The notes below the pieces were generated by a model that searched no databases, had not been told where the DNA came from, and was given only the letters and a program-made list of their open reading frames with translations. From a virus, in IMG/VR virus record IMGVR_UViG_3300031857_015401, positions 1 to 64,000 of that record: 64,000 nt of DNA. One strand, given 5' to 3'. Within the stretch, counting starts at the first letter, position 1. The number at the start of each line of letters is the position of its first letter. The position numbers and the translations under genes are program-made. Below, piece by piece: positions 34,401 to 62,037 of this stretch.

Positions 34401-36167
34401 ATGGAAGAATTAATTTCAAAAACTCCCGAAACAAGGGCCCTTCAGTTATTAGATGAATATGTTGGGTCAAATAACTATATCTTGTCGTTAAAACACAAAA
34501 AACAAAATAGTAAGACATTTACACCTACAAGACCACAAGCAGAATACATTATAAATTTTCACGGAAGAGTGCCAAAGGTTGCAAAAAAATGGGTTAAACT
34601 TGATTCATATTTTGGTAAAAAAATGATGGAAGATAAGATGTATACAAAAGAACCATCAGAAATTTATGTTGAGAAGTTATTAGTTGAGAAAGATAAATCA
34701 TACCATATATGGGGTAAAATATTTAGTGGGGAAACTTTACATGATTTTTGGATACCTAAATCGGCACTAATAAAAGATAACGAGGTTAAAAATGTTGTTA
34801 TTGAATATTCTAAGTACGAACACAGATCTCCGATGTCTCACCAAAAAGAGGCTATTGAAAAACTTGTTAGAAATAAAAAGTTTATCTTGGCTGATGATAT
34901 GGGTCTTGGTAAAACAACATCAACAATTATATCTGCACTTGAAACAGGTGCAAAAAAAATATTAATAATTTGTCCTGCGTCTTTAAAAATAAATTGGGAA
35001 AGAGAGATTGCAAATTATTCAGACAGAACCGTATATATTGCAGAAGGTAAGAAATTTTCGGATGAATCTGATTTTGTAATTATTAACTATGACATATTAA
35101 AAAACTTCCACGACCCAAAAAAGAAAGACGACTCTATAATTTTAAAATCAAATTTTGAATTGGTTATCATGGATGAGGCTCACATGATCTCAAACCCACA
35201 AGCACAAAGGACAAAAATAGTAAACGATTTATGTGATAGGTTAGATAGGGTTTGGTTGTTAACAGGAACCCCAATGACATCAAGACCAATGAATTATTTT
35301 AATTTATTAAAATTGGTTGATAGTCCTGTTGCTGCTAATTGGATGGCTTACGCAAAAAGATATTGTAATGGTTATCAATTTAATGTTGGAAAAAGAAAAG
35401 TTTGGAATGTTACGGGAGCATCTAACTTAGATGAATTAAGAGAAAGAACTCAAACACATATTCTAAGAAGATTAAAAGAAGAAGTTTTAGACTTACCTGA
35501 TAAAATTATTACACCCGTTTATTTAAGATTAAAGTCAAAAGATTATGAAGAACTAATGGGTGAGTACTATGATTGGTATGATAAAAACCAAGAAGAATCT
35601 TCGTCACTTACCATTCAGTTTGGTAAATTAATGAAAGTAAGAAAAGTAATTGCACAAGAAAAAGTTAAATCAACAATTGAATTGGCAGAAAACATAATTG
35701 AACAAGGAAAAAAAGTTATCATATTTACAAACTTTACAGATACATTACAAGAAATATATAATCACTTTGGAAAATCTGCAGTTTATTTAGACGGATCTTG
35801 TTCAAAACCCCACCGTCAAAAAGCGGTGGACGACTTTCAAGAAAATGAAAAAATTAAAGTATTTGTTGGTAACTTAAAAGCCGCTGGTGTTGGTATAACA
35901 TTAACCTCAGCTGAAGCAGTTATTATGAATGACTTATCATTTGTACCTGCTGAACACGCACAGGCGGAAGACAGATCACATAGGATAGGTCAAAAAAATT
36001 CAACGTCAGTTTATTACCCATTATTTGAAAATACAATTGAAGGAGCAATTTATGACATCTTAACAAGAAAGAAAAAAATCATATCAACAGTAATGGGTGA
36101 TGATCTATTATTGGATGAAGGGTCGTCAATAGAAGAAATGTTAAATATGATTTCTTCTAATAGATGA
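34401..36167 (+). CDS. SNF2-family (superfamily 2) helicase/translocase
   Basis: 588 aa from ATG at 34401. An upstream in-frame ATG at 34281 would add 40 hydrophobic residues and overlap the divergent gene, so it is rejected. Motif I is DDMGLGKTT at 165-173, motif II is MDEAH at 257-261, motif III is LTGTP at 287-291, and the C-terminal lobe has SHRIGQ motif VI. These are SNF2/HepA-type dsDNA translocase motifs. An N-terminal domain (about 1-140) may bind substrate. It could act like T4 UvsW or Dda in fork or recombination processing, but UvsW is a different SF2 branch. It heads the plus-strand island with the metalloprotease-SOD gene. Confidence 0.88.
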   Translation: MEELISKTPETRALQLLDEYVGSNNYILSLKHKKQNSKTFTPTRPQAEYIINFHGRVPKVAKKWVKLDSYFGKKMMEDKMYTKEPSEIYVEKLLVEKDKSYHIWGKIFSGETLHDFWIPKSALIKDNEVKNVVIEYSKYEHRSPMSHQKEAIEKLVRNKKFILADDMGLGKTTSTIISALETGAKKILIICPASLKINWEREIANYSDRTVYIAEGKKFSDESDFVIINYDILKNFHDPKKKDDSIILKSNFELVIMDEAHMISNPQAQRTKIVNDLCDRLDRVWLLTGTPMTSRPMNYFNLLKLVDSPVAANWMAYAKRYCNGYQFNVGKRKVWNVTGASNLDELRERTQTHILRRLKEEVLDLPDKIITPVYLRLKSKDYEELMGEYYDWYDKNQEESSSLTIQFGKLMKVRKVIAQEKVKSTIELAENIIEQGKKVIIFTNFTDTLQEIYNHFGKSAVYLDGSCSKPHRQKAVDDFQENEKIKVFVGNLKAAGVGITLTSAEAVIMNDLSFVPAEHAQAEDRSHRIGQKNSTSVYYPLFENTIEGAIYDILTRKKKIISTVMGDDLLLDEGSSIEEMLNMISSNR

Positions 36168-36180: not shown

Positions 36181-37263
36181 ATGGAAATAGAATTAAATAA
36201 TAGTGGTAATATAGAACAAAAAAAATTAATAAAAAAATTTATAGATTTTTTAGATAAAGAGTATCCATTAAAAAATGATTTAAAGATTGATTTTTTAGAA
36301 AAAAGAACGGGAACTATGACCACAGGTAGTAGGACTAACAATAACCGATTAAAAATATTAGTAAAAGATAGATTAAATAGAGATATTTTAAAAACTATCG
36401 CACACGAATGGATTCACGAATACCAAAGAACAGTTCTAAAAAGAAATAAGGGACCAAAAATTGGTGGTCAAAACGAAGACGAAGCCAATTCATTGGCCGG
36501 ATCATTAATAAAAAAATTTGAAAAAAATAATAAATCTGAAGATAACATTATTTATAAACCGTTTCAAAAAAAAATTAATGAGTTAGAATTAAAAATTAAT
36601 GAAGATTTAATTTTACAAAAAAGTATAATATCAGAAATTAAAAAGGTTAGTATTGAAAAACTTCCATATGATTTTAATTCAGTAGAAACCTTCATTGATA
36701 GTGAGACAATGAAAACTCACTATACAAAACATTATAAAGGTTATGTTGATAAATTAAATTTAGAATTAGAAAAAATAAAAGGTAAAGATTTAGATTTAGA
36801 AGAAATTGTAAAAAACATTTCTAAATTTAATACAAAGGTTAAAAATAATGGTGGTGGCGCATTTAATCACGCGTTGTTTTGGAAAATGTTGTCACCAAAA
36901 AAACAAATTTTAGAAGACCCGATAAAAAGTAAAATTATAAAACATTTTGGTTCTTTTGAAAAATTTAAAGAGGAATTTGAAGAAGAAGCAAAATCAAGAT
37001 TTGGTTCAGGTTGGGTTTGGTTAATTTTAACAAAAAGTAACGGATTAAAGATTGTAACTACCGCGAATCAAGATAATCCACTTATGAACACAGAAAAAAC
37101 CCAAGGTTATCCTTTATTAGGTCTTGATGTTTGGGAACACGCGTATTATTTAAAATATAAAAACGAAAGAGATAAATACGTTAAAAATTTTTGGAAAGTT
37201 GTTAATTGGGGGTTTGTTAATGATTTATACACAACCCAATTAAGAAAGAAATCAAATCAATAA
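36181..37263 (+). CDS. Fusion: zinc metalloprotease-like domain + Fe/Mn superoxide dismutase
   Basis: 360 aa. Residues about 30-120 hold a zincin core: AHEWIHE gives H75-E76-xx-H79, and EDEANSLAGSLI gives a likely third ligand E101, a pattern close to ImmA/IrrE-type peptidases. A charged linker (about 120-158) follows. Residues about 160-352 are an Fe/Mn superoxide dismutase: LPYDFNSVE start, ligands H180 (THYTKHY), H230 (GAFNHALFW), D316 and H320 (LDVWEHAYY), plus FGSGWVWL and VVNWGFVNDLY, all typical. The SOD would convert superoxide to oxygen and peroxide. Both active sites look intact. The gene lies between the SNF2 helicase and neck gene, separated by boxes on both sides. The role of the fusion is unknown. 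Confidence 0.88.
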   Translation: MEIELNNSGNIEQKKLIKKFIDFLDKEYPLKNDLKIDFLEKRTGTMTTGSRTNNNRLKILVKDRLNRDILKTIAHEWIHEYQRTVLKRNKGPKIGGQNEDEANSLAGSLIKKFEKNNKSEDNIIYKPFQKKINELELKINEDLILQKSIISEIKKVSIEKLPYDFNSVETFIDSETMKTHYTKHYKGYVDKLNLELEKIKGKDLDLEEIVKNISKFNTKVKNNGGGAFNHALFWKMLSPKKQILEDPIKSKIIKHFGSFEKFKEEFEEEAKSRFGSGWVWLILTKSNGLKIVTTANQDNPLMNTEKTQGYPLLGLDVWEHAYYLKYKNERDKYVKNFWKVVNWGFVNDLYTTQLRKKSNQ

Positions 37264-37287: not shown

Positions 37288-38406
37288 ATGTCAACATCAA
37301 TTATTTCAGAACCAGAAAGAGGTAAGTTGTATAAAAGAATTAGAAATCTTTTAGGTGCACCATTACGTTCAGTAGAGTTGGAAGACGAACAGATGGATTC
37401 ATTATTAGAATTATCCGTTCAGGATTATGCTCAACACGTTAATGATTGGTTAATTGAATCTCAATGGTCTTCACTCTATGGATTAAACTTAGATGAACAA
37501 TCCGTTACAAGGGCGTTTACTACAAGAAGTTTAGATTGGGAAACTCAATACACTTACTCGTATTCAAAAATTGTTGGTTTACAGGCCGGGGGTGATTATG
37601 TTTTGAAAAAAGATTATATTGATTTAATACCAAATCAACAAATATATGAAATACCTGCAGGTAGAGAACTTAATGAACTTTTATGGTTTTCAAGATCTGA
37701 ATTAGATGCTGCGTATTTTGATCCATTTATGGGTGGGTTTGGTGGTTTTGGGGGTATTGGTCTTGGTGGTGGTGCTGGATTTTCACAAATGGGTACAACG
37801 GGTAATTACTTTATAACACCTGCGTTTGATATCCTTTTAAGAATGCAAGATATTAATATTAAAAGAAGATTAATCACAGGTGAATTAACATATAGAGTTA
37901 CCGCATTACCTGAAGGTAAAAAAGCAATACATTTAATGAATGTTCCTGGTGGTAAATTTGATTTTGGTAATATGAAAAATAAAGACTACAGAGTTTGGTA
38001 TTGGTATTATGAAACAAATGATAGAGAAGATTGTTTGAAAAAAAATCCTGACATTGTAAAACTTCCTTCTGATGTACCTATTGATGAAATTAGGTGGGAC
38101 GAATTAAATGGTCCGGCACAAACATGGGTTAGAAGGTGGTTCACCGCATATTGTAAAGAAACTTTAGCAAAAGTAAGAGGTAAATACAGTGGTAATTTAA
38201 AAACACCCGATAGTGAAGTAACTATTGAATGGCAATCTTTAAATACTGAAGCTAAAGATGAAAAAACATTGTTGTGGGAAGAACTAAAAACAAGATTAGA
38301 AAGATTAAGACCTGAAAAACAATGGGAAATTAAAGGTGCAATGGCTGAAAATATGAACAAAGCATTAAAATTCAGACCATTTACAAGTCCGTATAATGTT
38401 ATATAA
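37288..38406 (+). CDS. 13: Neck protein, T4 gp13-like
   Basis: 372 aa. The N-terminus (GKLYKRIRNLLGAPLRSVEL followed by EDEQMDSLLELSVQDYAQHV) is typical of the gp13-type neck/head-completion proteins of T4-like phages; the middle carries a glycine-rich loop (FMGGFGGFGGIGLGGGAGFS, about 151-170) and the C-terminus has a helical region. gp13 seals the head and joins the tail. T4 gp13 is 309 aa. It is on the plus strand, opposite to the tail genes, and is followed 6 bases later by a 110-aa gene. Confidence 0.7.
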   Translation: MSTSIISEPERGKLYKRIRNLLGAPLRSVELEDEQMDSLLELSVQDYAQHVNDWLIESQWSSLYGLNLDEQSVTRAFTTRSLDWETQYTYSYSKIVGLQAGGDYVLKKDYIDLIPNQQIYEIPAGRELNELLWFSRSELDAAYFDPFMGGFGGFGGIGLGGGAGFSQMGTTGNYFITPAFDILLRMQDINIKRRLITGELTYRVTALPEGKKAIHLMNVPGGKFDFGNMKNKDYRVWYWYYETNDREDCLKKNPDIVKLPSDVPIDEIRWDELNGPAQTWVRRWFTAYCKETLAKVRGKYSGNLKTPDSEVTIEWQSLNTEAKDEKTLLWEELKTRLERLRPEKQWEIKGAMAENMNKALKFRPFTSPYNVI

Positions 38407-48641: not shown

Positions 48642-48935
48642 ATGGCGGTACAATCAGATAAAATAGATTTTTCTCAACCTGATAATGAGTTGTCAAGAAT
48701 TGCTGAAGAGCAAAGAAAAAAATTATTTCCAAGAAATGATTTTAAACCAACCGACCCTTATTCGTCAGTTCATCCTGATGCTTTAGCTAATGGTGACAAA
48801 ATTGGTAGGGGGACTGGTGGTGATTTAGATATTTATAACAATAATATTGGAACATCTGATGATGTAACAAAAAGAAAAGAAGAGTTAAAAGTAAATAAAT
48901 ATTCATCTAACAACCCATACTATAACGTTAAATGA
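48642..48935 (+). CDS. Small hypothetical protein
   Basis: 97 aa, not recognised. Largely polar and low in hydrophobic residues, hence probably extended or disordered (QPDNELSRIAEEQRKKLF, then RGTGGDLDIYNNNIG). Begins 1 base after the previous stop and overlaps the next start by 4 bases (ATGA). Confidence 0.5.
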   Translation: MAVQSDKIDFSQPDNELSRIAEEQRKKLFPRNDFKPTDPYSSVHPDALANGDKIGRGTGGDLDIYNNNIGTSDDVTKRKEELKVNKYSSNNPYYNVK

Positions 48936-49324
48936 AACTTCTTAACAGTTTAAAAGGTTTGGTTACTGAGGCTGCGGCTCTTGGTGATGTTCAAGATTCT
49001 ATAAAGAAAAAATCTATTATGATTATTTATTACGATGGTGATGATAATGGAGGAAAGGGATATAGAACAATAGAACCTGTATGTTTAGGATATAGTAAAA
49101 GAGGAAATTTAGTACTAAGAGCATGGGAAAGAGAAGGAGCGTCTTGGTCAGAAAAAAATAAAGGAAATATTTTACCTGGTTGGAGGTTATTTAGATTAGA
49201 TAAAATCTTTACATATAAACCAACTATGGATAATTTTATGGATATAAGACCTTACTATAACCCTAATGGTGATAGATCTATGGATAGGGTCTTAATAAAT
49301 GCAAAATTTGATAATATAACATAA
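48932..49324 (+). CDS. WYL-domain-like protein
   Basis: 130 aa. Residues about 28-95 (IMIIYYDGDDNGGKGYRTIE then PVCLGYSKRGNLVLRAWERE and GWRLFRLDKI) follow the WYL fold pattern: I.Y..dG....R.IEP..LGYS.rGN.VLRA......WR.FRLD.I. WYL domains bind nucleic acids or small ligands in regulators and in phage proteins. There is no DNA-binding helix-turn-helix, so this is a stand-alone module after a helical N-terminus (MKLLNSLKGLVTEAA). It overlaps its predecessor by ATGA. Confidence 0.6.
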   Translation: MKLLNSLKGLVTEAAALGDVQDSIKKKSIMIIYYDGDDNGGKGYRTIEPVCLGYSKRGNLVLRAWEREGASWSEKNKGNILPGWRLFRLDKIFTYKPTMDNFMDIRPYYNPNGDRSMDRVLINAKFDNIT

Positions 49325-50039: not shown

Positions 50040-51251
50040 ATGAAAAAAATAAAAGTATTAGTACTCCCATCAGACCGCACGGGAGTTGGAAAATTTAGGT
50101 CTGTTGATCCTCATGTAATGTTACAAAATAATCATTCAGACGAATTTCACGTAGATATTGATTACGAACCAAAAATTAATGATATAAATTATTGGAAACA
50201 ATATGATATTGTTCATTTTCATAGATCCATTGGCCAAGATTATAACCAAGCACCGAATATTATTAAAAATTTAAACGCTTTAGGTATTGTAACAATTATG
50301 GATTTGGATGATTATTGGTTACCTACTAAAGAACACCCAGTACATCAGTTAGTAGTTCAAAATAAGTTACATGAAAAAATTATGGATAACTTAAAAGTTG
50401 CAGGTCATGTAACGACAACAACGTCTATTTTTGCTACAGAAATATCTAAACTTAATAAGAATGTTTATGTGTTACCAAACGCAATAAATCCAAACGAGCA
50501 ACAGTTTAAAGCAGAAACATTACCTTCAGATAAGTTAAGATTTGGTTGGTTAGGTGGTTCTTCACATTTACACGACTTAAAATTATTAGACGGTACAATT
50601 AATAAATTAAAACCGTATAACGATAAGTTTAGTATGTACCTTTGTGGTTTTGATATTAGAGGTAGTGTTACAGAAATAAATAAAGAAACTGGAGAACAAA
50701 AACAAAGACCAATTAGACCTGAAGAAACTGTTTGGGCTCGTTACGAAGAAATATTCACAGATAACTATAGAATGGTTACTCCTGAACATAAAGATTTTTT
50801 AATGAAATTTAAAGAAGAAGATTACGTTTCTGATGTCTTACCTTTCTATAATAGAATTTGGACAAAACCTGTAACGAGTTATGCTGCAAATTATAGATGG
50901 TTTGACGTTTCATTAGCACCAATTAAAAACCATATCTTTAATAGAGTTAAGTCACAATTAAAAGTAATTGAAGCAGGGTTTTATAAAAAAGCATTAATCG
51001 CATCTAATGTTGGTCCTTACACAATTGATTTAAAACATTCTTTAAAAAATGGTGAATTTACTGATGGAAATGCGCTTTTAGTGGATGAGGTAAGAAATGG
51101 TGATTGGTCTAAATACATGAAAAAATTAATTGACAACCCTAATTTCGCGTATGATTTAGGCCAACGTCTTTATGAAACAGTTAAAGACACATACGACTTA
51201 AATAAAGTAACAAAAGATAGAGCAGAATTATATAAAACACTTGTAAAATGA
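50040..51251 (+). CDS. Glycosyltransferase, GT4-like (GT-B fold)
   Basis: 403 aa. An N-terminal Rossmann half (IKVLVLPSDRTGVGKFRSVD, ... DIVHFHRS) and a C-terminal half with RFGWLGGSSHLHDLKLL and VIEAGFYKKALIASNVGPY follow the GT-B pattern in which the second domain binds the nucleotide sugar; the E at about 320 in VIEAG is in the usual conserved position. It transfers a sugar to an unknown acceptor. It opens the glycan operon and overlaps the exonuclease by ATGA. Sugar and acceptor cannot be told from sequence. Confidence 0.8.
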   Translation: MKKIKVLVLPSDRTGVGKFRSVDPHVMLQNNHSDEFHVDIDYEPKINDINYWKQYDIVHFHRSIGQDYNQAPNIIKNLNALGIVTIMDLDDYWLPTKEHPVHQLVVQNKLHEKIMDNLKVAGHVTTTTSIFATEISKLNKNVYVLPNAINPNEQQFKAETLPSDKLRFGWLGGSSHLHDLKLLDGTINKLKPYNDKFSMYLCGFDIRGSVTEINKETGEQKQRPIRPEETVWARYEEIFTDNYRMVTPEHKDFLMKFKEEDYVSDVLPFYNRIWTKPVTSYAANYRWFDVSLAPIKNHIFNRVKSQLKVIEAGFYKKALIASNVGPYTIDLKHSLKNGEFTDGNALLVDEVRNGDWSKYMKKLIDNPNFAYDLGQRLYETVKDTYDLNKVTKDRAELYKTLVK

Positions 51252-51967
51252 TAAACATACCTATAACAAAAATTTTATTCTTGGATATTGAAACCGTTGG
51301 TGGTTGTCCTGATTTAGAATCTTGTGAAAGATTTAGTCCTGAAATTGCAGAACAATTTCATAAATATTTTGATTGGTTTATTAAAAGGTTTCCTGAAGAT
51401 AATACAATAGGTAAATCTGAAATAGAATTAAAAAATGAGGTGTTTAAAAAGAGATCCGCTCTTGTTCCTGAATTTGCAAAAATTGTTTGTGTTTCTATGG
51501 CGTTTGTATTGGATAACGGAGAAATTAAAAAACAAACATTTTCAGGTGACGATGAAAAAGAATTATTGTTACAAGTAAGAAATCTTTTGGATAGATGTCA
51601 AAAGTTAGATTTTTATTTATGTGGACATAATCTTAAAAATTTTGATATTCCTATGATGGCAAAAAGAATGATTATTAATGGTATTATGCCATCAAAACTT
51701 CTTCCATCGTATGATACAAAACCTTGGGAGGTAAAAGCGATTGACACAAAAGAAATATGGCAATATGGAGCATACACGGCCATTGGATCATTAGATTTAG
51801 TTTGTTCAACAATGGGAATACCAACACCAAAAGATGGTGAAGTCACTGGAGATAAAGTTCATCACGCTTATTGGGTGGAACAAAAATTACCACAAATTTC
51901 AGAATATTGTGAAAAAGATGTTAATGTATTAATTGAATTTATAAAAAAACTAAAAGAATTAAAGTAA
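51248..51967 (+). CDS. DEDD-family 3'-5' exonuclease, PolB-like
   Basis: 239 aa. The three exonuclease motifs are present: ExoI LFLDIETVGG (D13, E15), ExoII GHNLKNFDIPMM near residue 124-135, and ExoIII EYCEKDVNVL near 218-227. They match stand-alone DEDDy exonucleases related to the PolB proofreading domain. The enzyme trims DNA 3' ends. It starts with an ATGA overlap from the glycosyltransferase and ends in TAATG with the dUTPase, so DNA-metabolism genes are translationally coupled into the glycan run. Confidence 0.8.
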   Translation: MINIPITKILFLDIETVGGCPDLESCERFSPEIAEQFHKYFDWFIKRFPEDNTIGKSEIELKNEVFKKRSALVPEFAKIVCVSMAFVLDNGEIKKQTFSGDDEKELLLQVRNLLDRCQKLDFYLCGHNLKNFDIPMMAKRMIINGIMPSKLLPSYDTKPWEVKAIDTKEIWQYGAYTAIGSLDLVCSTMGIPTPKDGEVTGDKVHHAYWVEQKLPQISEYCEKDVNVLIEFIKKLKELK

Positions 51968-52572
51968 TGATTGAAAAAGTTAAAGATTTACAAAACAAAT
52001 TAAAATTAATCCAAGACCTAAAATCTAGTTTTTTGGAACGTGAAGATTTTTCTGAAGATGAACCAAAAACAATTGAAGAATTAGGTATTGATGAAGATAT
52101 GATATCAAAACATTTTGAAGATCAAATGATAAAAAAAGTTTCTTTAGAATATACAAATTCTTCTGATAATAAAGAACCTGAATACGCTTACGGGTCCGAC
52201 TCTGGTTTTGATTTAAGATCAACCGAAGAATTATGGGTACAAGGAAATGATAGAAAATTAATACCGACAGGTCTAAGATTTGATATTCCTGATGGGTATG
52301 AAATACAAGTAAGAAGTAAAAGTGGTTTAGCATTAAATCAAGGACTAATGGTTTTAAATTCGCCAGGCACTGTGGATAGTGGATATCAGGGTGAAATTAA
52401 AGTTATTTTATTTAACACAACAAAAGAAAGAATTAAAATAGAAAAGGGTCAAAAAATTGCACAAGCAGTTCTTTGTCCTGTAATTAATGGAAAATGGATT
52501 AACTTAGTTAAAGTTGAAGAGATTGGTGAGAAAGATAGAAACGATAAAGGATTTGGTAGTACTGGTTTATGA
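51967..52572 (+). CDS. dut: dUTPase with N-terminal extension
   Basis: 201 aa. All five dUTPase motifs are visible in order: YGSDSGFDLRS, VRSKSGLA, LNSPGTVDSGYQGEIKVIL, KGQKIAQAVL and RNDKGFGSTGL. It hydrolyses dUTP to dUMP, keeping uracil out of phage DNA and supplying dTMP synthesis. About 60 residues before the core are acidic and helical, longer than usual, of unknown purpose. The gene is coupled on both sides (TAATG with the exonuclease, ATGA with the next). Confidence 0.92.
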   Translation: MIEKVKDLQNKLKLIQDLKSSFLEREDFSEDEPKTIEELGIDEDMISKHFEDQMIKKVSLEYTNSSDNKEPEYAYGSDSGFDLRSTEELWVQGNDRKLIPTGLRFDIPDGYEIQVRSKSGLALNQGLMVLNSPGTVDSGYQGEIKVILFNTTKERIKIEKGQKIAQAVLCPVINGKWINLVKVEEIGEKDRNDKGFGSTGL

Positions 52573-54206
52573 TTACAATAGGATTTTCTACAAGAAAAAT
52601 TGATAATGATTTTGTTGAGTTGTTAAAAAAAACTTCAGGGATACCTAAATGTGAAATTGTACCGGTCGAAAATAACGGTCAGTTTTCATTAACTGAAGTT
52701 TATAATAAAATAATAAACGACTCTTCAAACGATATTGTGGTATTGTGTCATGATGATATATATTTTGATACCAAAAATTGGGGAAATAAAATTTTAAACC
52801 ATTTTAAAAGAAATAAAGATTATGGTGTATTAGGTTTGGCTGGAACAACTAATATGCCAAAATCAGCAAAATGGTGGGAAGACTTTTCAAAAATGAAAGG
52901 TATTGTAAATCATGAACATGAAGGTAAAAAATGGGAATCAAAATATTCGGCAAGTAAAGGAAACCAATTAGACGACGTTGTTTTAGTTGATGGTCTTTTT
53001 ATTGTTATTAACAAACAAAATATTAAAAAAAATTTTAATGAAGGCATAAAAGGATTTCATTTTTATGATGTTGATTTTTCTTTTAGAAATTTTATAGACG
53101 GTGTTAAAATTGGTGTTATGTATGATGTCAGAGTCACCCATAAATCAATTGGTCAAACAAACGAACAGTGGGAAAAAAATAGAGAGGTGTTCGCTGAAAA
53201 ATATAAAGACATATTACCCGTTAAGGTTAAAAGAAATTTGAACATAGATTCACCATTAAAAGTTTTACTTTCTTGTTTATTTTTTAAAACATTTACCGGT
53301 TCAGAAATGTATGTTTATGAATTAGCAAGAGGTTTAAAAAAATTAAATTGTGATGTTACTGTTTTATCTGACATTAATGGACCGTTATCACAAATTGCAA
53401 AATCACAAGGGATTAAAGTTTTAGGTTTTAACGACGCCCCCGGTTATAAAATGGGAGACGGAAAATGGGGATTTAATACTCCACAAGGAGTTCAACCATC
53501 ACAACCAAATATGTTATATAAAATGGGTGAGGTTGATTTTGACATTATCCATACACAACATACACCAATAACAAACCAAATGTGTCAAATGTACCCAAAC
53601 GTTGATAAAATATCAACAATACATTCTGAAGTTATAGAATTAGAAAATCCGGTTTTAAATGAATCAATCAAAAAATATATTTGTATTAGACCTGAAATAC
53701 AAGAACATATTACAAATAATTTTAACATCGACATTAATAACACTGAAGTGATTTACAACCCAATAGATACTGATAGATTTAACACAAAAAATACAAAAGA
53801 CGATGGGTATATTTTATTTGTTGGGACGTTAGATTATTTAAGAGAAAACACAATTAAAGATTTAGTTGAATATACAAAATCAATAGGTAAAGAATTTTGG
53901 TTGGTTGGTGAAAATAAATCAAACTATTTAGAAGATTTATTAAAATCAGAACACGTAAAACATTATGATGCAACAAATAAAGTTGAGAATTTTGTAAAAA
54001 ATTGTAGTGAGACTGCGGGCATACTTTTAGGAAGAACAACTATTGAGGGTTGGATGTGTGGAAAACCTGGTTGGATTTATAATGTAGATGAATCTGGATA
54101 TATTTTAAATAAAGAAAAGTTTGACATTCCTAAAGATATTAATAAATTTAATTCTTTAGAAGTATCAAAAAAAATAAAAGAAGAGTATATAAAAATTTTA
54201 AACTAA
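52569..54206 (+). CDS. Two-domain glycosyltransferase: GT2-like + GT4-like fusion
   Basis: 545 aa. The N-terminal domain (1 to about 215) is GT-A-like, starting ITIGFSTRKIDNDFVELLKK and carrying IVVLCHDDIYFDTKNW with the acidic DD pair that binds metal-nucleotide, then DVDFSFRNFI. The C-terminal domain (about 220-545) is GT-B-like with TGSEMYVYELARGLKKLN, VIYNPIDTDRFN and LFVGTLDYLRENTIKDLVEY, typical of GT4. Two different transfers in one chain could add two sugars in sequence. Neither donor can be inferred. Confidence 0.8.
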   Translation: MITIGFSTRKIDNDFVELLKKTSGIPKCEIVPVENNGQFSLTEVYNKIINDSSNDIVVLCHDDIYFDTKNWGNKILNHFKRNKDYGVLGLAGTTNMPKSAKWWEDFSKMKGIVNHEHEGKKWESKYSASKGNQLDDVVLVDGLFIVINKQNIKKNFNEGIKGFHFYDVDFSFRNFIDGVKIGVMYDVRVTHKSIGQTNEQWEKNREVFAEKYKDILPVKVKRNLNIDSPLKVLLSCLFFKTFTGSEMYVYELARGLKKLNCDVTVLSDINGPLSQIAKSQGIKVLGFNDAPGYKMGDGKWGFNTPQGVQPSQPNMLYKMGEVDFDIIHTQHTPITNQMCQMYPNVDKISTIHSEVIELENPVLNESIKKYICIRPEIQEHITNNFNIDINNTEVIYNPIDTDRFNTKNTKDDGYILFVGTLDYLRENTIKDLVEYTKSIGKEFWLVGENKSNYLEDLLKSEHVKHYDATNKVENFVKNCSETAGILLGRTTIEGWMCGKPGWIYNVDESGYILNKEKFDIPKDINKFNSLEVSKKIKEEYIKILN

Positions 54207-55210
54207 TGAAAATATTATTTTGTCTTGGGACTAGGCCTGAGTGGTTAAAAATAAAACCCCTTATAAATATTTTAGATAAAAAAAATTACGATATTTTTTT
54301 TACTGGTCAACATCAAGATTTATTAAAAGACTTAGAATTTGATTACAACGTTAATGTTATAAACAATAAAAATCGACTTGATGATATTATTATTTCATGT
54401 ATGTTAAATTTTCCTACAGAAAAATACGATTACGTTTTAGTACAAGGAGACACTGGTTCTGCCTTAGGGTGTGCGTTGGCAGCATATAATAGAAAAATAA
54501 AATTAATACATTTAGAAGCAGGACTTAGAACTTATGATTTAGAAAACCCATATCCCGAAGAGTCTTATAGACAAATAATATCAAGAATATCGTCAATTAA
54601 TTTATGTCCAACAAACGTTTCTTTTAATAATTTAACAAATGAAAAAGTTTCGGGTAAAACATATGTTGTTGGTAACACTGTTTTAGATAATTTAATAGAT
54701 TTAAAAGAAAAATCTAATTATGGTGATGACGTTTTAGTTACTTTACATAGAAGAGAAAACCATGACATTATGGATAGATGGTTTTTAGAATTAAATAAAC
54801 TATCAAAAAAGTACCCTAATTTAAATTTTATTTTACCAATACACCCAAACCCAAATGTTCAAAAATACAAAAACATTTTAGATAAAAAAATTAAAGTTGT
54901 TAATCCATTATCACACGGTGATTTAATTAAAATTTTATTAAATTGTAAATTTGTTATTACTGATAGTGGAGGTATTCAAGAAGAAGCAACATTTTTAAAT
55001 AAAAAATCTATAGTTTGTAGAAAAACAACAGAAAGACCTGAAGGTATAAGTACCGGTCATTTATTTTTATGTAATGAAACAAAAAATTTAGATGAGTTGG
55101 TTTACATAATTAATAAAAATTATTATATTAATAATGAATGTCCATATGGTAATGGAACTTCATCAAAGCAAATAATAGAAATTTTAAAAAATGATTACAG
55201 TAATCCTTAA
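54206..55210 (+). CDS. wecB: UDP-N-acetylglucosamine 2-epimerase
   Basis: 334 aa. Family signature pieces: LGTRPEWLKIKPLI at the start, QGDTGSALGCALAAY, HLEAGLRTYDLENPYPEE, TLHRREN and TDSGGIQEEATFL. These match non-hydrolysing UDP-GlcNAc 2-epimerases (WecB), which produce UDP-ManNAc. The length is slightly below WecB's usual 370. The product would feed the surrounding glycosyltransferases. It begins on a TAATG overlap and its end overlaps the next glycosyltransferase by 20 bases. Confidence 0.88.
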   Translation: MKILFCLGTRPEWLKIKPLINILDKKNYDIFFTGQHQDLLKDLEFDYNVNVINNKNRLDDIIISCMLNFPTEKYDYVLVQGDTGSALGCALAAYNRKIKLIHLEAGLRTYDLENPYPEESYRQIISRISSINLCPTNVSFNNLTNEKVSGKTYVVGNTVLDNLIDLKEKSNYGDDVLVTLHRRENHDIMDRWFLELNKLSKKYPNLNFILPIHPNPNVQKYKNILDKKIKVVNPLSHGDLIKILLNCKFVITDSGGIQEEATFLNKKSIVCRKTTERPEGISTGHLFLCNETKNLDELVYIINKNYYINNECPYGNGTSSKQIIEILKNDYSNP

Positions 55211-55919
55211 TGGTTATAAAAGATCTTCTCATTTTGAGAGACAATTAAATGCAATAAAGTCACAAACATTAAGACCTAAAGAAATAATGTTATGGCAAAA
55301 TAAAGGTGAGGATTTTGAGATATCTTTAACCGAACAAACAACACACGCAAATTGTAATAAAAATTTAGGTGTTTGGGCTAGATTTGCATTTGCATTAAAT
55401 GCAAAAACAGAATATGTTTGTATTTTTGATGATGACACAATACCTGGTACAAAATGGTTAGAAAACTGTTATAATACAATACAAACAAATGATGGTTTAT
55501 TAGGAACTATTGGTGTAAAATTTTTAGATAAAAATAATTACGTTTCTAATGTTAGGGTTGGTTGGGACAGACCAAATAATCAAACAGAAGTAGTTGATAT
55601 TGTTGGTCATTCTTGGTTTTTTAAAAGAGAAGATTTGGCAACTTTTTGGAGAGAGTTACCTGATTTAAATCACAATACTTTAGTTGGTGAGGATATGCAT
55701 TTTTCATACACGTTACAAAAGTACACAAATAAAAAAACATACGTTCCTCCGCACCCACCGTCTGATATGGAAATGTGGGGTAGTAAACCTGACACCGCAT
55801 GGACAATTGGTACGGATTCGGCAGCAATATCAAAAGATTGGTCAAACATGAACGCTATGAACCAAGCGTTTATAGGATATATAAATAAAGGATTTAAAAT
55901 ATTAAAAGATAATATATGA
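55191..55919 (+). CDS. Glycosyltransferase, GT2-like (GT-A fold)
   Basis: 242 aa. The start MITVILNGYKRSSHFERQLN and the segment YVCIFDDDTIPGTKWLENCY with the FDDDT acid motif (about 78-82) are GT2-like, followed by VGHSWFFKREDLATFW and VGEDMHFSYTLQKY near the catalytic base region. Adds an unknown sugar. It overlaps wecB by 20 bases and couples to the next gene by ATGA. Confidence 0.8.
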   Translation: MITVILNGYKRSSHFERQLNAIKSQTLRPKEIMLWQNKGEDFEISLTEQTTHANCNKNLGVWARFAFALNAKTEYVCIFDDDTIPGTKWLENCYNTIQTNDGLLGTIGVKFLDKNNYVSNVRVGWDRPNNQTEVVDIVGHSWFFKREDLATFWRELPDLNHNTLVGEDMHFSYTLQKYTNKKTYVPPHPPSDMEMWGSKPDTAWTIGTDSAAISKDWSNMNAMNQAFIGYINKGFKILKDNI

Positions 55920-56704
55920 AAACATTTATATCGGACTTTAATAAAATTAAAAAATTTATTGAAAATAACGTAAATTTTTCATTTACAAGATTTTCTGATG
56001 GAGAACTTTTTGTATTACAAAACAAAAGATTAGAACTTAATGAGGATCATTATATTATTGGAAACAGTAGAGGAGGTGGGTGGTACAATAAAGAAGAACA
56101 AAAAACTTTTATACCTGGTGAACATGAATTTTATAGAAAAAAATTAGAAGAGTCTCTACAATGCAATTTACCTAATTTTTATCGTGGCATATGTACAAGA
56201 CCTGATGTTGATTTAGAAACCTTTAATTGGATGGTTAATTTAGCAGGTGGAGATAGTGAAACACTTACTTGGTCTAATCTACTAATAAATGGTAATTACG
56301 AAAGATATTTAAATGAAATAGTTCCTTTATTTAAAAACAAAGAAATTATTTTTATTGTTAATGAAAGTGCTAATTTTGATAAATTACCTTTTATAGTTAA
56401 AAAAGATTTTAGAGTTGGTACAAACTGTTTTATTAATAATTATGACTTAATAGAAACAATTAAATCTTATATTATTGAAAACAATATTGAAAATCATTTA
56501 TTTTTGGTTTCAGCGGCTAGTTTTAGTAATTTATTAATTCACGAATTACATAAATTATCAAATAAAAACACATATTTAGAAATTGGTAGTACGTTGAATC
56601 CATTGATGGGTATGGAAGGTTGGAAAGGTAGTCGTGGTTATTTACGAGAATATTGGTTGGGTCAAAATAGAAATTATTTAAATATGGATTGTTTATGGAA
56701 TTAA
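55916..56704 (+). CDS. Glycosyltransferase with GT-D fold
   Basis: 262 aa. Near the N-terminus FSFTRFSDGELFVLQ carries the conserved (R)..DGE signature of the GT-D family (formerly DUF1792). The metal-binding DGE is at about 28-30. Known members transfer sugars in bacterial glycoprotein or polysaccharide assembly. It is followed by an overlapping acetyltransferase. Family assignment is fairly confident; substrate unknown. Confidence 0.72.
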   Translation: MKTFISDFNKIKKFIENNVNFSFTRFSDGELFVLQNKRLELNEDHYIIGNSRGGGWYNKEEQKTFIPGEHEFYRKKLEESLQCNLPNFYRGICTRPDVDLETFNWMVNLAGGDSETLTWSNLLINGNYERYLNEIVPLFKNKEIIFIVNESANFDKLPFIVKKDFRVGTNCFINNYDLIETIKSYIIENNIENHLFLVSAASFSNLLIHELHKLSNKNTYLEIGSTLNPLMGMEGWKGSRGYLREYWLGQNRNYLNMDCLWN

Positions 56705-57102
56705 AATTAGTTAAAAACAAAAAAAAATATTACGAATTTATTCGTAATATGAGGATACATCCTGATAACGAGTCGGGATTTTTAGAAAAAGTCAACATAA
56801 CTTCAGAACAACAAGAAAATTATATGAAAAAATATAATGATTGTTATTATGTTGCCATTTTAAATGAAAGTCCTGTTGGGTATGTTGGTGTTGTTGACAA
56901 TGATATAAGAATTTGTACAGACCCTTCATATAAAAAAACAGGTGCCGGAACTTTTATGTTAAATGAAATAATGAAATTATATCCAAATGCAACTGCAAAA
57001 ATATTAAAAGATAATGTTGCAAGTTTGTCTCTTTTTAAAAAATGTAATTTTACTATTGTTAATGACGATGAAAATCTTTATTATTTAAAATATGGAATAT
57101 AG
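56695..57102 (+). CDS. GNAT-family N-acetyltransferase
   Basis: 135 aa from ATG 56695 (MELKLVKNKKKYYEF); a TTG two codons earlier is also possible. The GNAT fold is indicated by YVAILNESPVGYVGVVDN, then DPSYKKTGAGTFMLNEIMKL (acetyl-CoA binding region) and SLSLFKKCNFTIV. It probably N-acetylates an aminosugar, matching the adjacent DegT-type aminotransferase. It overlaps the neighbours on both sides. Confidence 0.75.
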   Translation: MELKLVKNKKKYYEFIRNMRIHPDNESGFLEKVNITSEQQENYMKKYNDCYYVAILNESPVGYVGVVDNDIRICTDPSYKKTGAGTFMLNEIMKLYPNATAKILKDNVASLSLFKKCNFTIVNDDENLYYLKYGI

Positions 57103-57757
57103 AAGACCAAAAAACAACCCATACAAAGTTGTACAAATGTTTGAAGAGGAGGTTGCGGATTATACAGGTGCACCTTATGCCGTTTCTGTTGATAACTGTA
57201 CTAATGCATTATTTTTATGTTTAAAATACTTAAAAAATGTAAATTTTTTAGATAATGCAACACCAATAACAATACCATCTAAAACATACTTGTCTGTACC
57301 ACAATCAATTATTCATGCTGGTTTTATGCCAATATTTGATACAAGGGATAAATCTAACAATTGGCAAGGAATTTATAAATTAGAACCATTACCTATATAC
57401 GATTCAGCAAAAAGATTTACATCTAATATGTACATACACGGAACATTTATGTGTTTATCTTTTCATATAAAAAAACATTTAAAGATTGGTAAAGGCGGTA
57501 TGATTTTAACAGACAATAAAGATGCTGTTGAGTGGTTTAAAAAGGCTAGGTATGAAGGTCGTGGTGAAAAACTTTACCACGAGGACGATATAGATATGTT
57601 AGGGTGGAATATGTATATGACCCCACAACAAGCATCTCACGGATTATCACTTATGCAAAATTATCCATTAAACGTTCCTGATCTTGGAGAAAATAATGGG
57701 TATAGAGATTTAACAGAATTTACTGTTTTTAAAAATTATAAAAAAATAACAAAATGA
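57092..57757 (+). CDS. Short DegT/DnrJ/EryC1-type sugar aminotransferase
   Basis: 221 aa. Elements: VDNCTNALFLCLKYL (PLP pocket), ITIPSKTYLSVPQSIIHAGF, PIYDSAKRF (Asp binding the pyridinium) and LSFHIKKHLKIGKGGMIL, where one of the paired lysines should bind PLP. These match the DegT sugar aminotransferase large domain. The full family is about 370 aa, so the C-terminal small domain is mostly missing. It resembles the gene at 61312. It would transaminate a keto-sugar if active. Confidence 0.75.
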   Translation: MEYRRPKNNPYKVVQMFEEEVADYTGAPYAVSVDNCTNALFLCLKYLKNVNFLDNATPITIPSKTYLSVPQSIIHAGFMPIFDTRDKSNNWQGIYKLEPLPIYDSAKRFTSNMYIHGTFMCLSFHIKKHLKIGKGGMILTDNKDAVEWFKKARYEGRGEKLYHEDDIDMLGWNMYMTPQQASHGLSLMQNYPLNVPDLGENNGYRDLTEFTVFKNYKKITK

Positions 57758-58392
57758 AAAAAATAACAATCGAAAACAAAGAAGAGTGGAAAAAATACAT
57801 AATGAAAGAAGCGAATTATTCTTTACCTGATGAATGTAGAGGTGGATTATGTGTAGATGCAGGATGTAATATTGGTGATTTTCCTATGAATAATAAAAAT
57901 AGATTTGACAAATATATTTGCTATGACGTTTTTCAAGAAAATATAGATGAATGTAAAAAAAATACAGACACACTTGGTTGTATTGTAGAAATACATAAAA
58001 AAGCGGTTTGGTCAGAATCTGGAAAAAAAATTAACGTTATGGCTTATAGGCAAAACGAGAATGGAGATTTACAACATTTTGGTAATTCGGGAAATGTGGG
58101 TTGTATTGAAATTGTTGGTGATGGTGGTCAGGGATGGACTAAAGATAATGTAATCGATACTGTTGAAACTATTTGTATAGAAGATATAAAAAAAACATAT
58201 GGGAATATAAAACTGTTAAAGGTTGACGTTGAGGGGTCTGAATATAGTTTTTTACTTAACAAAGATCTATCAAATATTGATTATATTGTTGGTGAATTTC
58301 ATTTTGAAAAAGAAAAAAAAGACAATTTAGATTCTTGGATATGTAAAACACATGATAAGTTAGATGGTTACTACAAATTAAAAACAATATAA
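57754..58392 (+). CDS. FkbM-family SAM-dependent methyltransferase
   Basis: 212 aa. SAM motif I is LCVDAGCNIGDF (about 32-43); the FkbM signature appears as VETICIEDIKKTYG and KLLKVDVEGSEYSFLL, the acidic VDVEGSE being typical. FkbM enzymes O-methylate sugars or polyketides. Within the operon it likely methylates a sugar of the glycan. ATGA overlap with the aminotransferase. Confidence 0.8.
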   Translation: MKKITIENKEEWKKYIMKEANYSLPDECRGGLCVDAGCNIGDFPMNNKNRFDKYICYDVFQENIDECKKNTDTLGCIVEIHKKAVWSESGKKINVMAYRQNENGDLQHFGNSGNVGCIEIVGDGGQGWTKDNVIDTVETICIEDIKKTYGNIKLLKVDVEGSEYSFLLNKDLSNIDYIVGEFHFEKEKKDNLDSWICKTHDKLDGYYKLKTI

Positions 58393-58397
58393 AATTT

Positions 58398-58925
58398 ATG
58401 ATTATTGGTAATGATGTCGTTATTGATGATTTTGCAACTTTTAAAAGACCCGAATTAGTTGAAATTGGTAATCATGTATCGATAGATCATGGATTTTATT
58501 GCACAACTTCTTTAAATATTGGTGATTATGTGCACATATCACCCTATGTTACTTGTATTGGTGGGTCTCAAGGTGTTTTTATAGCAAAAGGTTTTAATAA
58601 TATAATGTCGGGTGCTAGAATTATATGTAGTTCAGATAGATTTGATGATAGCGGACTTTTTGGTGCAATGATCCCTAAAAAATATAAAGGTAAACAAATA
58701 ACAAAACCAGTAATTATGGAAGAATTTTCAAATATTGGTACTAATTCTATTGTTTTACCCGGATCAATACTTAGAAAAGGTGTATTATTAGCTGCCGGTA
58801 GTTTGTTAATTGGGGATACAGAAGAATGGGGGGTATATAAAGGTAATCCCGCAAAATTAGTTAAAAAAATAGATGGGTCAAAAATCATAAATCAATCATT
58901 GAACTTAGGGTATAAAAATATTTAA
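58398..58925 (+). CDS. Hexapeptide-repeat acyl/acetyltransferase (left-handed beta helix)
   Basis: 175 aa. Imperfect hexad repeats run through VEIGNHVSIDHGFYC, LNIGDYVHISPYVTCIGG and ILRKGVLLAAGSLLIGD, ending YKGNPAKLVKKI, the NPA.lv motif closing the coil. This is the WbbJ/LbetaH fold of CoA-dependent O- or N-acyltransferases that modify sugars. It lies 5 bases after the methyltransferase. Confidence 0.82.
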   Translation: MIIGNDVVIDDFATFKRPELVEIGNHVSIDHGFYCTTSLNIGDYVHISPYVTCIGGSQGVFIAKGFNNIMSGARIICSSDRFDDSGLFGAMIPKKYKGKQITKPVIMEEFSNIGTNSIVLPGSILRKGVLLAAGSLLIGDTEEWGVYKGNPAKLVKKIDGSKIINQSLNLGYKNI

Positions 58926-58926
58926 T

Positions 58927-59823
58927 ATGTCAATAATAACTAATGGATTAACCCAAGACGGTTTTGGCGCTAGACTACAAAGAGCAATTAATACAATGTC
59001 ATTTACATTTTACTTAAATGATAAATATAATACAAACATAGAGTATGTTCATACTCCATTTTCATATGAAGGTTTTGGTGAAGATTTTAGTTTAGGTGAA
59101 AGGGATAGGGAAATAGGAGATAATAGATACCCATACGATGAAATAACAAGAGAAGGTTATTTAAAAAGAGCAAATTTATGGGATAGTTTTGTAAACTACC
59201 AGGGTAAAATAATTACAGATATAGATTTAAATACGTACAATATAATTGATGAATTCGATTACCAATATAATAAACTTTTTTACGATATCCATCAAGGAGA
59301 AACTAAAAATAATATTTATGTAGTCAAATATTTACAATCACAATTAAATAATGGTTTTATTAATTTTAATAATATTGATTTTTATTATGATCAGATAAAA
59401 AAAAGAATACCGATAATAGAAAAAGAACATAACAATGAAATTATAATTCATATAAGAAGAAAAGATGCTATTAATTTTGGGTATGATAGATTTTTATCTG
59501 ATGAATATTATTTGGATTTATTAGATAAGCTTAAATCTTTTAAAGAAAAATATAAAATAACTATTCATACACAAAGAAAAAATTTTGATTATAATAAATA
59601 TTGTGGTTGGGATATTTGTTATGACGATGAAATTGAAGACTACGACCTGTTTAAAAAAATGGTTAATTGTAAAGTTTTAGTTGTTGGTAAAAGTTCTTTT
59701 AGTATTGCAGCAGCAATGTTAAATAAAAATATTATTGTATATCCCGAACAACCAACAAGAAAACTTGATAGATGGATAAATAAAATAAACTTTTTTAATT
59801 TAATAGAAAATTATGGATTATAG
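58927..59823 (+). CDS. Fucosyltransferase-like glycosyltransferase (GT11/GT23-type, tentative)
   Basis: 298 aa. The start DGFGARLQRAINTMSFTFYL and the segment EIIIHIRRKDAINFGYDRFL resemble the G..G..LQR.. and HIRRGD-type donor motif of alpha-1,2/1,6-fucosyltransferases; KMVNCKVLVVGKSSFSIAAA fits the conserved C-terminal segment with a Ser-Ser-F pair. GDP-fucose or a related GDP-sugar donor is plausible, in line with the SDR at 62034. The K in place of G in HIRRKD weakens the call. Confidence 0.6.
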   Translation: MSIITNGLTQDGFGARLQRAINTMSFTFYLNDKYNTNIEYVHTPFSYEGFGEDFSLGERDREIGDNRYPYDEITREGYLKRANLWDSFVNYQGKIITDIDLNTYNIIDEFDYQYNKLFYDIHQGETKNNIYVVKYLQSQLNNGFINFNNIDFYYDQIKKRIPIIEKEHNNEIIIHIRRKDAINFGYDRFLSDEYYLDLLDKLKSFKEKYKITIHTQRKNFDYNKYCGWDICYDDEIEDYDLFKKMVNCKVLVVGKSSFSIAAAMLNKNIIVYPEQPTRKLDRWINKINFFNLIENYGL

Positions 59824-60649
59824 GTTGGTAAAAGTTGATAGCTATGGTAGTGGGTTTTTTGGTAATTTTTTTACCATTTTATCAAATATTATAGGTCACG
59901 AAAATAGTGGTTATTACCCGTATGTTAATATTAATAAATCCGTTTGGGCCAATGGGTATGACCCAAGATACGATTTGTCACCACCAGAAAACGCAGATAA
60001 CCCGTGGGATTGGTGGTTTGATCAACCAATTCCAAAAACCGATGATAATATACATTATTTACCATTTGTTGGAAACGCATATTTTCCAGCAAACACAAAA
60101 GTTTGGGGTAGAAATGATATACCATATGCTAAAAGTGTGTCAGATAAGTACATAAAAATTAAAGATCATATATTAGAAAAAATTAATGATTTTTATGAAA
60201 AAAATTTAAAAAATGAAATAGTTTTAGGTATTATGGCAAGAGGTGCCGAAATGGGGATATGCCATCCAGAATATGGGAATCAAGGAATAAATGATTGGAT
60301 TAATGAAACAAAAAAAATTATAAGTTTACATCCAGAAATTACTAAAATTTTTTTAGTAACTGAAGAATCTTATTATGTTGAAGAATTTAAAAAAGAATTT
60401 GACAATTTAATTTATATGACTGATGTATATAGAAGGACCACAGAATCTTTAGAAGACATTGTAAATTTTTCATTATTATATTGTTTAGTGACACCAAGAG
60501 AAAACCATAAAAAACTTTTAGGTGAAGAATGTTTAATTCAGGCTAAATTATTAAGTAGGTCCGATTATCTTTTAGTTAAACAATGTGGTACATCTTCAGC
60601 GGCGATATTTTTTGCCGATAATAATTTAAAAAACGTATTTTATATATAA
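59813..60649 (+). CDS. Putative glycosyltransferase, fucosyltransferase-like fold
   Basis: 278 aa, not firmly recognised. LGIMARGAEMGICHPEYG holds an R-G that resembles the donor-binding HxRGxD-type motif of fucosyltransferases, and QCGTSSAAIFFADNNLKNVF resembles their C-terminal segment. It overlaps the upstream fucosyltransferase-like gene by 11 bases. No direct evidence of activity. Confidence 0.5.
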   Translation: MDYRLVKVDSYGSGFFGNFFTILSNIIGHENSGYYPYVNINKSVWANGYDPRYDLSPPENADNPWDWWFDQPIPKTDDNIHYLPFVGNAYFPANTKVWGRNDIPYAKSVSDKYIKIKDHILEKINDFYEKNLKNEIVLGIMARGAEMGICHPEYGNQGINDWINETKKIISLHPEITKIFLVTEESYYVEEFKKEFDNLIYMTDVYRRTTESLEDIVNFSLLYCLVTPRENHKKLLGEECLIQAKLLSRSDYLLVKQCGTSSAAIFFADNNLKNVFYI

Positions 60650-60652
60650 AAA

Positions 60653-61303
60653 ATGAATAGAACAGAAATTATAAATCATATAATATCAAAATATAATTTT
60701 GATACATATTTGGAAATCGGAGTAAGTGACGTTAATTTAAACTTTAACCACATAAAAATAAAAAATAAAATTGGGGTTGACCCAAACCCTGATGTTTGGG
60801 GAATTGACTACAATATGACTTCTGACGATTTTTTTAAAATTAATAAACAAAAATTTGATATTATTTTCATTGATGGTATGCATGAGTTTCATTTTGTTTA
60901 TAGAGACATAATAAACTCATTAGATATACTAAACGAAAATGGGGTTATCGTTTTACACGATTGTAATCCCGAAAATGAAGTTATTCAAATGGTGCCGGAA
61001 ACAAAAGATGGTATTTGGACCAATCAAGAGTGGGTTGATTTTGCAGAAAATTGGAGAAAATTATCTGTTGATGGTAATTGGAGTGGTGATTGTTGGAAAG
61101 CCATTGTTAAATTTAGATCACTTCATAATAATTTTAAAACTTTTGTTATTGATACTGATTTTGGTGTGGGAATAATAACCAAATCTACTAAATCAGTAGA
61201 ACCATTAATATTAAATGAAGAATTAACATATAAAAATTTAGAAAAAAATAGAAAAGAATGGTTAAATCTTTTTTCTATTGATGATTTCATAAATAATATA
61301 TAA
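60653..61303 (+). CDS. Class I SAM-dependent methyltransferase (Methyltransf_24-type)
   Basis: 216 aa. Motif I is TYLEIGVSDVNLNFNH (about 18-33), then FDIIFIDGMHEFHFVYRDI and GVIVLHDCNPENEVI, the classical D.iFIDg.H and LHDc..p segments of sugar-O-methyltransferases such as Methyltransf_24 proteins. It lies within the glycan operon, 3 bases after its predecessor. Confidence 0.78.
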   Translation: MNRTEIINHIISKYNFDTYLEIGVSDVNLNFNHIKIKNKIGVDPNPDVWGIDYNMTSDDFFKINKQKFDIIFIDGMHEFHFVYRDIINSLDILNENGVIVLHDCNPENEVIQMVPETKDGIWTNQEWVDFAENWRKLSVDGNWSGDCWKAIVKFRSLHNNFKTFVIDTDFGVGIITKSTKSVEPLILNEELTYKNLEKNRKEWLNLFSIDDFINNI

Positions 61304-61311
61304 TTTTTATT

Positions 61312-62037
61312 ATGACAAAATATAAATACAATAGTTATGTATTAGGTAAAGTTCCTGAAAACTTACAAAGACCGGACATTTATAAACTAAAAGAGTCTGG
61401 TTATGACTTTAATGATGCCAGAGAAATTATAGATATTTTTGAAGAAAAAATTGCAAAATTTGCTGGATGTAAATTTGCAGTTTTGACTGATTGTTGCTCA
61501 CACGGACTATTTCTTTGTTTAAAATATATACAAAGAAAAAAAGAAATAGATGTTGATCAAAAAATTACTATACCTAATAGGACGTATATATCTGCACCAA
61601 TGCAAATTATACATTCAGGTTATAAAGTAAATTTTGAAGATATTGAATGGTCGGGGTTATATCAATTAAAACCAACAAGAATTTATGATAGTGCAGTAAG
61701 ATGGACAAAAAATATGTACGTCGGTAATAATGCGTTACAGGTTATTTCTTTTCAATTTAAAAAAAGAATCCCAATAGGAAAAGGAGGGGTTATATTAACC
61801 GATGATGAAGAAGCCGCCAAAATGTTAAAACTTATGAGTTACGATGGAAGGGATTTAACTGTACCATATGATGATGAAAACCATATAAAAACAATGGGAT
61901 ATCATATGTATATGACACCCGAAGATGCAGCTAGAGGAATACTTTTAATGGATCAAACACCTGAAATAAATGAAGACGCTTGTAATCATACAAATTATAT
62001 GGATGTTGAACAAATGTTAAAAAATATATCTTTATGA
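61312..62037 (+). CDS. Short DegT/DnrJ/EryC1-type sugar aminotransferase, paralogue
   Basis: 241 aa. It shares with the gene at 57092 the order of motifs: TDCCSHGLFLCLKYI, ITIPNRTYISAPMQIIHSGY, RIYDSAVRWTKNMY, SFQFKKRIPIGKGGVILTDD and HMYMTPEDAARGILLM. The matching parts and similar truncation of the C-terminal domain point to duplication. K in the FKKRIPIGKGG segment should form the PLP Schiff base. ATGA coupling to the next SDR gene. Confidence 0.75.
   Translation: MTKYKYNSYVLGKVPENLQRPDIYKLKESGYDFNDAREIIDIFEEKIAKFAGCKFAVLTDCCSHGLFLCLKYIQRKKEIDVDQKITIPNRTYISAPMQIIHSGYKVNFEDIEWSGLYQLKPTRIYDSAVRWTKNMYVGNNALQVISFQFKKRIPIGKGGVILTDDEEAAKMLKLMSYDGRDLTVPYDDENHIKTMGYHMYMTPEDAARGILLMDQTPEINEDACNHTNYMDVEQMLKNISL

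Follow-up and report, generated by a model that had tools for sequence, protein, structure and literature searches.

The stretch of DNA analysed here (the window) is 64,000 nucleotides long and belongs to a virus record of 92,870 bases, G000, in which T4-type genes are present, including gp32-like, gp25-like, baseplate, tail sheath, DnaB-like helicase and DNA polymerase genes. On its plus strand, an ORF with an ATG start (36181..37263) encodes 360 amino acids, in which a minimal gluzincin-like metallopeptidase fold (aa 1-116; 36181..36528) and a complete Fe/Mn superoxide dismutase (SOD; aa 158-350; 36652..37230) are joined by a variable linker (aa 117-157; 36529..36651). Both neighbouring genes lie on the same strand and are conserved. 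A SNF2-type helicase gene (34401..36167; phrog_62 DNA helicase, E 7e-113) was found upstream in 88 of 89 distinct fusion ORF strings, and a head-tail adaptor-like gene (37288..38406; phrog_211 head-tail adaptor Ad2, E 9e-11) was found downstream in 76 of them, 11 of the other 13 reaching the end of the available stretch. The initial annotation had placed the fusion among phage structural genes, which is partly right: it holds for the downstream neighbour and for tail-sheath and baseplate genes further off, but not for the helicase gene upstream. The T4-type late promoter motif TATAAATA occurred 28 times in the AT-rich window, compared with 18.2 ± 4.1 after shuffling (1 of 100 shuffles contained as many), which is no more than a mild enrichment.

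Several other features of the record were observed. A glycan gene block (50040-63687 of the window, continuing to approximately 69311 in G000) contains genes for UDP-GlcNAc 2-epimerase, DegT aminotransferases, NAD epimerases, PfkB kinase and glycosyltransferase among the part of its genes that was searched. A phage ribonucleotide reductase at 3939-5798 of the window matched a B12-dependent-type insertion domain. Outside the window, adjoining the capsid gene, G000 encodes a subtilase-family protein and a GEVED/CUB protein (77427-81093). What we take to be secretion-signal-like starts and a C-terminal end of Bacteroidota style are present in both, which suggests that the host of this phage belongs to Bacteroidota. 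In addition, a zincin fragment (L242:1-231) was located at one end of a contig from a Flavobacteriales genome bin, and it is possibly DNA of a phage of that host.

To characterize the spread of the fusion, we scanned viral contigs with it and obtained at least 585 related stretches, of which the best 80, located on 80 different IMG/VR contigs, were analysed. Both domains were present in one frame in all of these best 80 loci, with an approximately full-length match and 57-77% identity. Misassembly of two genes could thus be ruled out, since both halves were in frame on 80 separate contigs (the best 80 of at least 585) and the gene slot was conserved. The earlier reading of one intact ORF joining a zincin-like domain to a SOD was therefore correct, and the same fusion is present in related phage contigs. 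In total, the loci collected yielded 102 distinct ORF strings containing zincin and SOD, or 97 without cut copies and with the window's own included: 59 with zincin and SOD only, 32 with an additional module designated modB and 6 with another designated modC. None of 30 matching records in the annotated phage collection covered both halves; 28 of them matched the SOD part, and two, both copies of cyanophage S-SRM01, matched the zincin part. It should be noted that the SOD gene of one locus (L124, 2913-5091) was spread over two frames (ORFs of 190 and 523 aa), which may reflect a frameshift, an insertion or an assembly error.

The C-terminal half is a member of the Fe/Mn superoxide dismutase family on the basis of profile, ligands and fold, and its activity is predicted. 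In Pfam, Sod_Fe_N matched aa 158-238 (E 9.5e-22; 77.7 bits, cut-off 27) and Sod_Fe_C matched aa 247-347 (E 2e-40; 137.4 bits, cut-off 20.9). H180, H184, Y188, H230, D316 and H320 were each conserved without exception in the 46 aligned homologues. We take H180, H230, D316 and H320 to be the metal ligands, in agreement with the complete four-ligand SOD proposed in the initial annotation, and H184 and Y188 to be the gateway His and Tyr. The closest solved sequences were Fe/Mn-type SODs (C. difficile SOD 3tjt, E 5e-57), and Foldseek recovered the SOD fold of the model (6gsc, Sphingobacterium MnSOD; TM 0.91 by target length, 40% identity). Q297 was also invariant (46/46) and presumably marks a Mn-type SOD; on this sequence feature the phage enzyme is probably of Mn type.

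The structure of the N-terminal half was predicted with confidence (AlphaFold mean pLDDT 92.4). As judged from the model, its HExxH helix, later Glu and core fold make it a zincin (gluzincin-like) metallopeptidase, with both activity and metal predicted. The zinc motif HEWIH occupies aa 75-79 (36403..36417), as previously noted, and H75, E76 and H79 were found in all 46 aligned homologues. E101 had been assigned as the zincin Glu; however, position 101 was E in only 41 homologues (D in four and V in one), whereas E99 (36475..36477) was present in 46 of 46, and E99 is thus likelier to be the third zinc ligand. The gluzincin-like core was recognized with a VIA-align Z of 10.3 over 112 residues (2.8 Å, to the M1 peptidase ERAP1), a moderate value that came from re-examination of Foldseek's own candidates; Foldseek itself gave no match of the domain model to the PDB at E≤0.001. 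Its viral structure matches were proteins named IrrE-like, SprT-like or uncharacterised.

Assignment of this domain to a named family is less straightforward. HMM searches placed the SOD half above the cut-offs of both Sod_Fe profiles, but the N-terminal half had no Pfam match at E≤1 in a whole-protein scan. Across 25 N-terminal domains, Peptidase_M78 matched two (E≤1; best E 0.034), the SprT-like profile six (best E 0.021) and DUF6055 nineteen (best E 1e-4). No named family is thus secure for the zincin domain. ImmA/IrrE membership, as initially proposed, was examined through Peptidase_M78 and rejected at the profile level, as the window protein was unmatched at E≤1 and the profile cut-off was not reached; the S-SRM01 relative scored 13 bits, below the cut-off of 22. 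The zincin character itself, based on motif and fold, was retained. A scan of genome contigs yielded two weak relatives among 11 stretches and thus revealed no cellular origin for the zincin.

The two domains are separated by a poorly conserved region. Among 46 homologues, mean column entropy was 2.12 bits for aa 116-149, compared with 1.26 for the zincin and 0.79 for the SOD, and aa 142-153 were the sole segment of the fusion model with a pLDDT below 50. Within this region, E152 was the sole invariant residue between F113 and L161 (46/46). It ends the triplet I-S-E (aa 150-152; 36628..36636), in which position 150 was I or L in 45 homologues and V in one, and position 151 varied among seven residue types. 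No other [LI]xE triplet occurred in over 60% of rows: this one reached 98% (100% when V was allowed) and three others 50-59%. A cut after E152 would leave eight residues, IKKVSIEK, ahead of the LPY at the start of the SOD, and a lead of about this length is usual for SODs. The T4 prohead protease gp21 is described as cutting after Glu in L/I-X-E (review PMC9026906), and the E152 site looks like this cleavage motif; it is a predicted prohead-protease site.

Further investigation of the distinct zincin/SOD linkers revealed [LI]xE within the 14 aa ahead of LPY in 67 of 68 (68 of 68 with V). Together these 68 linkers contained 180 [LI]xE motifs versus 109 ± 8 after shuffling (0 of 2000 shuffles had as many), and all 23 distinct SOD/module junctions with C-terminal extensions carried the motif (48 motifs versus 15.8 ± 3.4, maximum 28 in 2000 shuffles), although the shuffles treat related sequences as independent and the counts are no independent trials. 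Two features count against a gp21-type site: the background is rich in L, I and E and the motif is short, and the SOD site has a bulky P1' residue (I or M), in comparison with A at the capsid site. By eye, we also found small phage proteins with [LIV]xE leaders such as LVTE|A and VLNE|T (window 48932-49324, L251 and L252-L256), which are candidate head cargo.

G000 encodes a gp21-type protease (PF03420; 85033-85737, minus strand), and the same ORF matched phrog_207, head maturation protease (E 2e-42). PF03420 was found in 7 of 13 and 3 of 10 records, many of them fragments, and this incomplete occurrence counts against the gp21 reading. The major head protein of G000 (phrog_138, E 1e-66) contains LINE|A at residue 60, as did all five records that were read, G000 included; T4 gp23 is described as losing 65 residues (PMC9958956). 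However, because four [LI]xE lie within the first 110 residues of the G000 capsid protein, LINE|A among them, this protein is only a loose internal control.

The architecture of the fusion varied considerably among relatives. Longer relatives append modules C-terminal of the SOD and reach 962 aa (L143, in which five modules were read by eye). Single members of modA, modB, modC and modE had no Pfam match at E≤0.1, and the L078 module was at E 0.02. For modF (23 members), which corresponds to the C-terminal ~280 aa of L377-L456, no Pfam family matched more than one member (best E 2e-4, MC4), and neither modF nor modB profiles had a convincing match in the PDB (best E 0.17 and 0.43, respectively). 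The two module families, which share a G-x-D...Q-x-K-P pattern, are probably related to each other at a distance (hhalign E 1.3e-6, probability 91), and at the motif level the pattern suggests a PD-(D/E)XK-type nuclease. More distantly related zincins were also observed in five phage proteins of 561-1496 aa that join them to other domains (L342, L356, L366, L369 and L376), with Amidoligase_2 above cut-off in L342 and L366, NT5C (5'-nucleotidase) in L356, a zincin-linked NTP transferase-like domain below cut-off and a cytidyltransferase-like domain in L369 by eye. [LI]xE was seen near several joints of these large proteins, by eye and without a control.

In a second group of relatives, the zincin is missing. 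In two such loci (L293 and L294), the SOD is preceded by a short leader and modB forms a gene of its own, whose leader contains ILINE. Scanning with the SOD of these loci gave at least 595 related stretches, of which the best 80 were analysed (L447 is L293's own contig, and L399 and L400 look like copies of one contig). The zincin was absent from the SOD slot in all of these best 80 loci, and the same two neighbours, the SNF2-type helicase and the head-tail adaptor-like gene, were found in 76 of them. A leader of 32-51 aa ahead of LPY occurred only in this clade. Among 52 distinct leaders from the best 80 of at least 595 loci, 49 had [LI]xE within 15 aa of LPY and the other three had V-x-E; 51 leaders held 132 motifs compared with 78.7 ± 7.2 after shuffling (again with related sequences treated as independent). 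In the same best 80 loci, all 57 distinct SOD/next-module junctions carried the motif. Of ten zincin-less records, the two longest, both of 322 kb, had a standalone zincin approximately 145 and 160 kb from the SOD, and the other eight, which may be fragments, had none. Conversely, no SOD was found in nine records chosen for a standalone zincin (52-107 kb; these may also be fragments).

We consider it likely that the fusion product is a head-packaged polyprotein from which a gp21-type protease would cut after E152, freeing a virion-borne SOD to be injected with the DNA. The fusion chain would be synthesized at the same time as the virion proteins and incorporated in the prohead, where the protease would cut within the I-S-E of the floppy linker. 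The cut would release an Fe/Mn SOD of normal length, which may stay with the DNA and enter the host at infection; there it would most likely remove superoxide in the first minutes and shield the incoming DNA and cell metabolism. The zincin would be a second, optional module, either a released cargo protease or a long propeptide, and the zincin, the nuclease-like and other modules would be co-cargo of the same polyprotein. What carries this explanation at the sequence level is the pair of domains, the conserved motif, a protease and a motif-bearing capsid protein in the same phage, and the shuffling of modules together with the motif. From these we infer late expression, packaging, cleavage and injection and, more tentatively, SOD activity and a benefit to the phage; shielding of the phage or infected cell by the SOD, as suggested in the initial annotation, is plausible. 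The slot beside a head-tail adaptor-like gene in both clades counts for packaging, whereas the standalone zincins, which have no obvious [LI]xE at their ends, count against a packaged polyprotein.

Among the other explanations, the SOD might act only inside the cell, as an auxiliary enzyme made during infection and never packaged, with the zincin fused to it by chance. Other large phages, such as Vibrio phage 2.275.O and Pseudomonas phage Callisto, likewise have Fe/Mn SOD-like genes, although these are standalone, zincin-free ORFs with about 27% identity over the SOD part. Such genes fit an intracellular role, but the motif in leader or linker and the slot beside the head-tail adaptor-like gene are conserved in two clades, and we regard this explanation as unlikely. 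Autoprocessing, in which the metallopeptidase would cut its own linker and free the SOD, has been proposed for the zincins of polyvalent proteins (PMC5512222). It would agree with the retained catalytic residues and with the related zincins in large multidomain phage proteins; however, it is weakened because the motif persists ahead of the SOD where the zincin is gone, and the motif fits the gp21 rule. Its role here seems improbable, although autoprocessing and packaging are not exclusive and our estimates for the two overlap. Finally, a stable bifunctional enzyme, whose protease and SOD would act jointly on a redox-linked host target across a spacer, as the initial annotation envisaged, could explain why catalytic residues are kept in both halves and why the fusion is found so often (97 distinct ORF strings), but it is likewise improbable and the functional pairing is unsupported, because the spacer is variable except for the capsid-protease-like [LIV]xE, a sister clade has the SOD without the zincin in the same slot (80 loci, the best 80 of at least 595), none of the nine standalone-zincin records (52-107 kb fragments) has a SOD, and the two are separate genes in both 322-kb records.

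Extended beyond this locus, the head-packaging explanation would mean that an active Mn-type SOD is carried and injected by T4-like phages, some of them represented by records of roughly 290-322 kb, and that it comes from shuffling polyproteins (with zincin, SOD, nuclease-like and unknown modules) diced in the prohead at L/I-x-E linkers; we hold the chances of this wider proposal to be evenly balanced. If true, it would represent a capsid-protease-processed cargo polyprotein system with a logic analogous to that of eukaryotic viral polyproteins. It would also give bacterial viruses an equivalent of the SOD that chloroviruses carry in their virions, and would point to oxidative danger when the phage enters. 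A further suggestion is a simple sequence rule by which [LIV]xE between modules in T4-like phages could reveal hidden injected cargo from genomes, including uncharacterised modules unrecognised by the family libraries searched.

Among the titles and abstract openings listed from the literature searched, which excludes preprints and most subscription journals, none described a packaged phage SOD. The chlorovirus PBCV-1, an algal virus, has a Cu/Zn SOD, which is a different class from the Fe/Mn enzymes. This SOD is described as late and virion-packaged, with less superoxide in infected cells, and the portions of the article consulted mention no polyprotein (PMC7019647). In SPN3US-type giant phages, ejection-protein propeptides of 111-254 aa are reported to be removed by the prohead protease, with several cuts in a propeptide (PMC10052503). 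The fusion would share with them a long removable N-terminal part; however, the cut here would remove a folded zincin whose catalytic residues are intact, and the phages concerned belong to the T4-like group. Polyvalent proteins (Iyer et al. 2017, PMC5512222) are described as combining unrelated enzymatic domains in one chain, with zincin hubs, and as being predicted to be injected. The fusion would work in a similar way and likewise contains two unrelated enzymatic domains, one of them a zincin, but has a SOD module, 'superoxide' having zero occurrences in the main text of that article, and its likely processing sites would be gp21-like rather than zincin-made.

A close parallel exists with the internal head proteins and Alt of T4, which are described as packaged, cut by gp21 after L/I-x-E and ejected (PMC9026906, PMC9958956). 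Shared features are an L/I-x-E linker or leader ahead of the mature domain and a gp21-type protease in the same phage. A short N-terminal capsid-targeting sequence, described for some T4 core proteins only (PMC9958956), is absent from the fusion, which starts directly at the zincin domain without a short leader, and this counts against packaging. The cargo also differs: here it is a SOD, the removed part would be a 152-aa folded zincin in contrast with a short propeptide, relatives of the fusion chain several modules, and packaging is predicted from genes. Without being filed as a member of that group, the fusion appears to work like the T4 gp21 substrates and internal head proteins.
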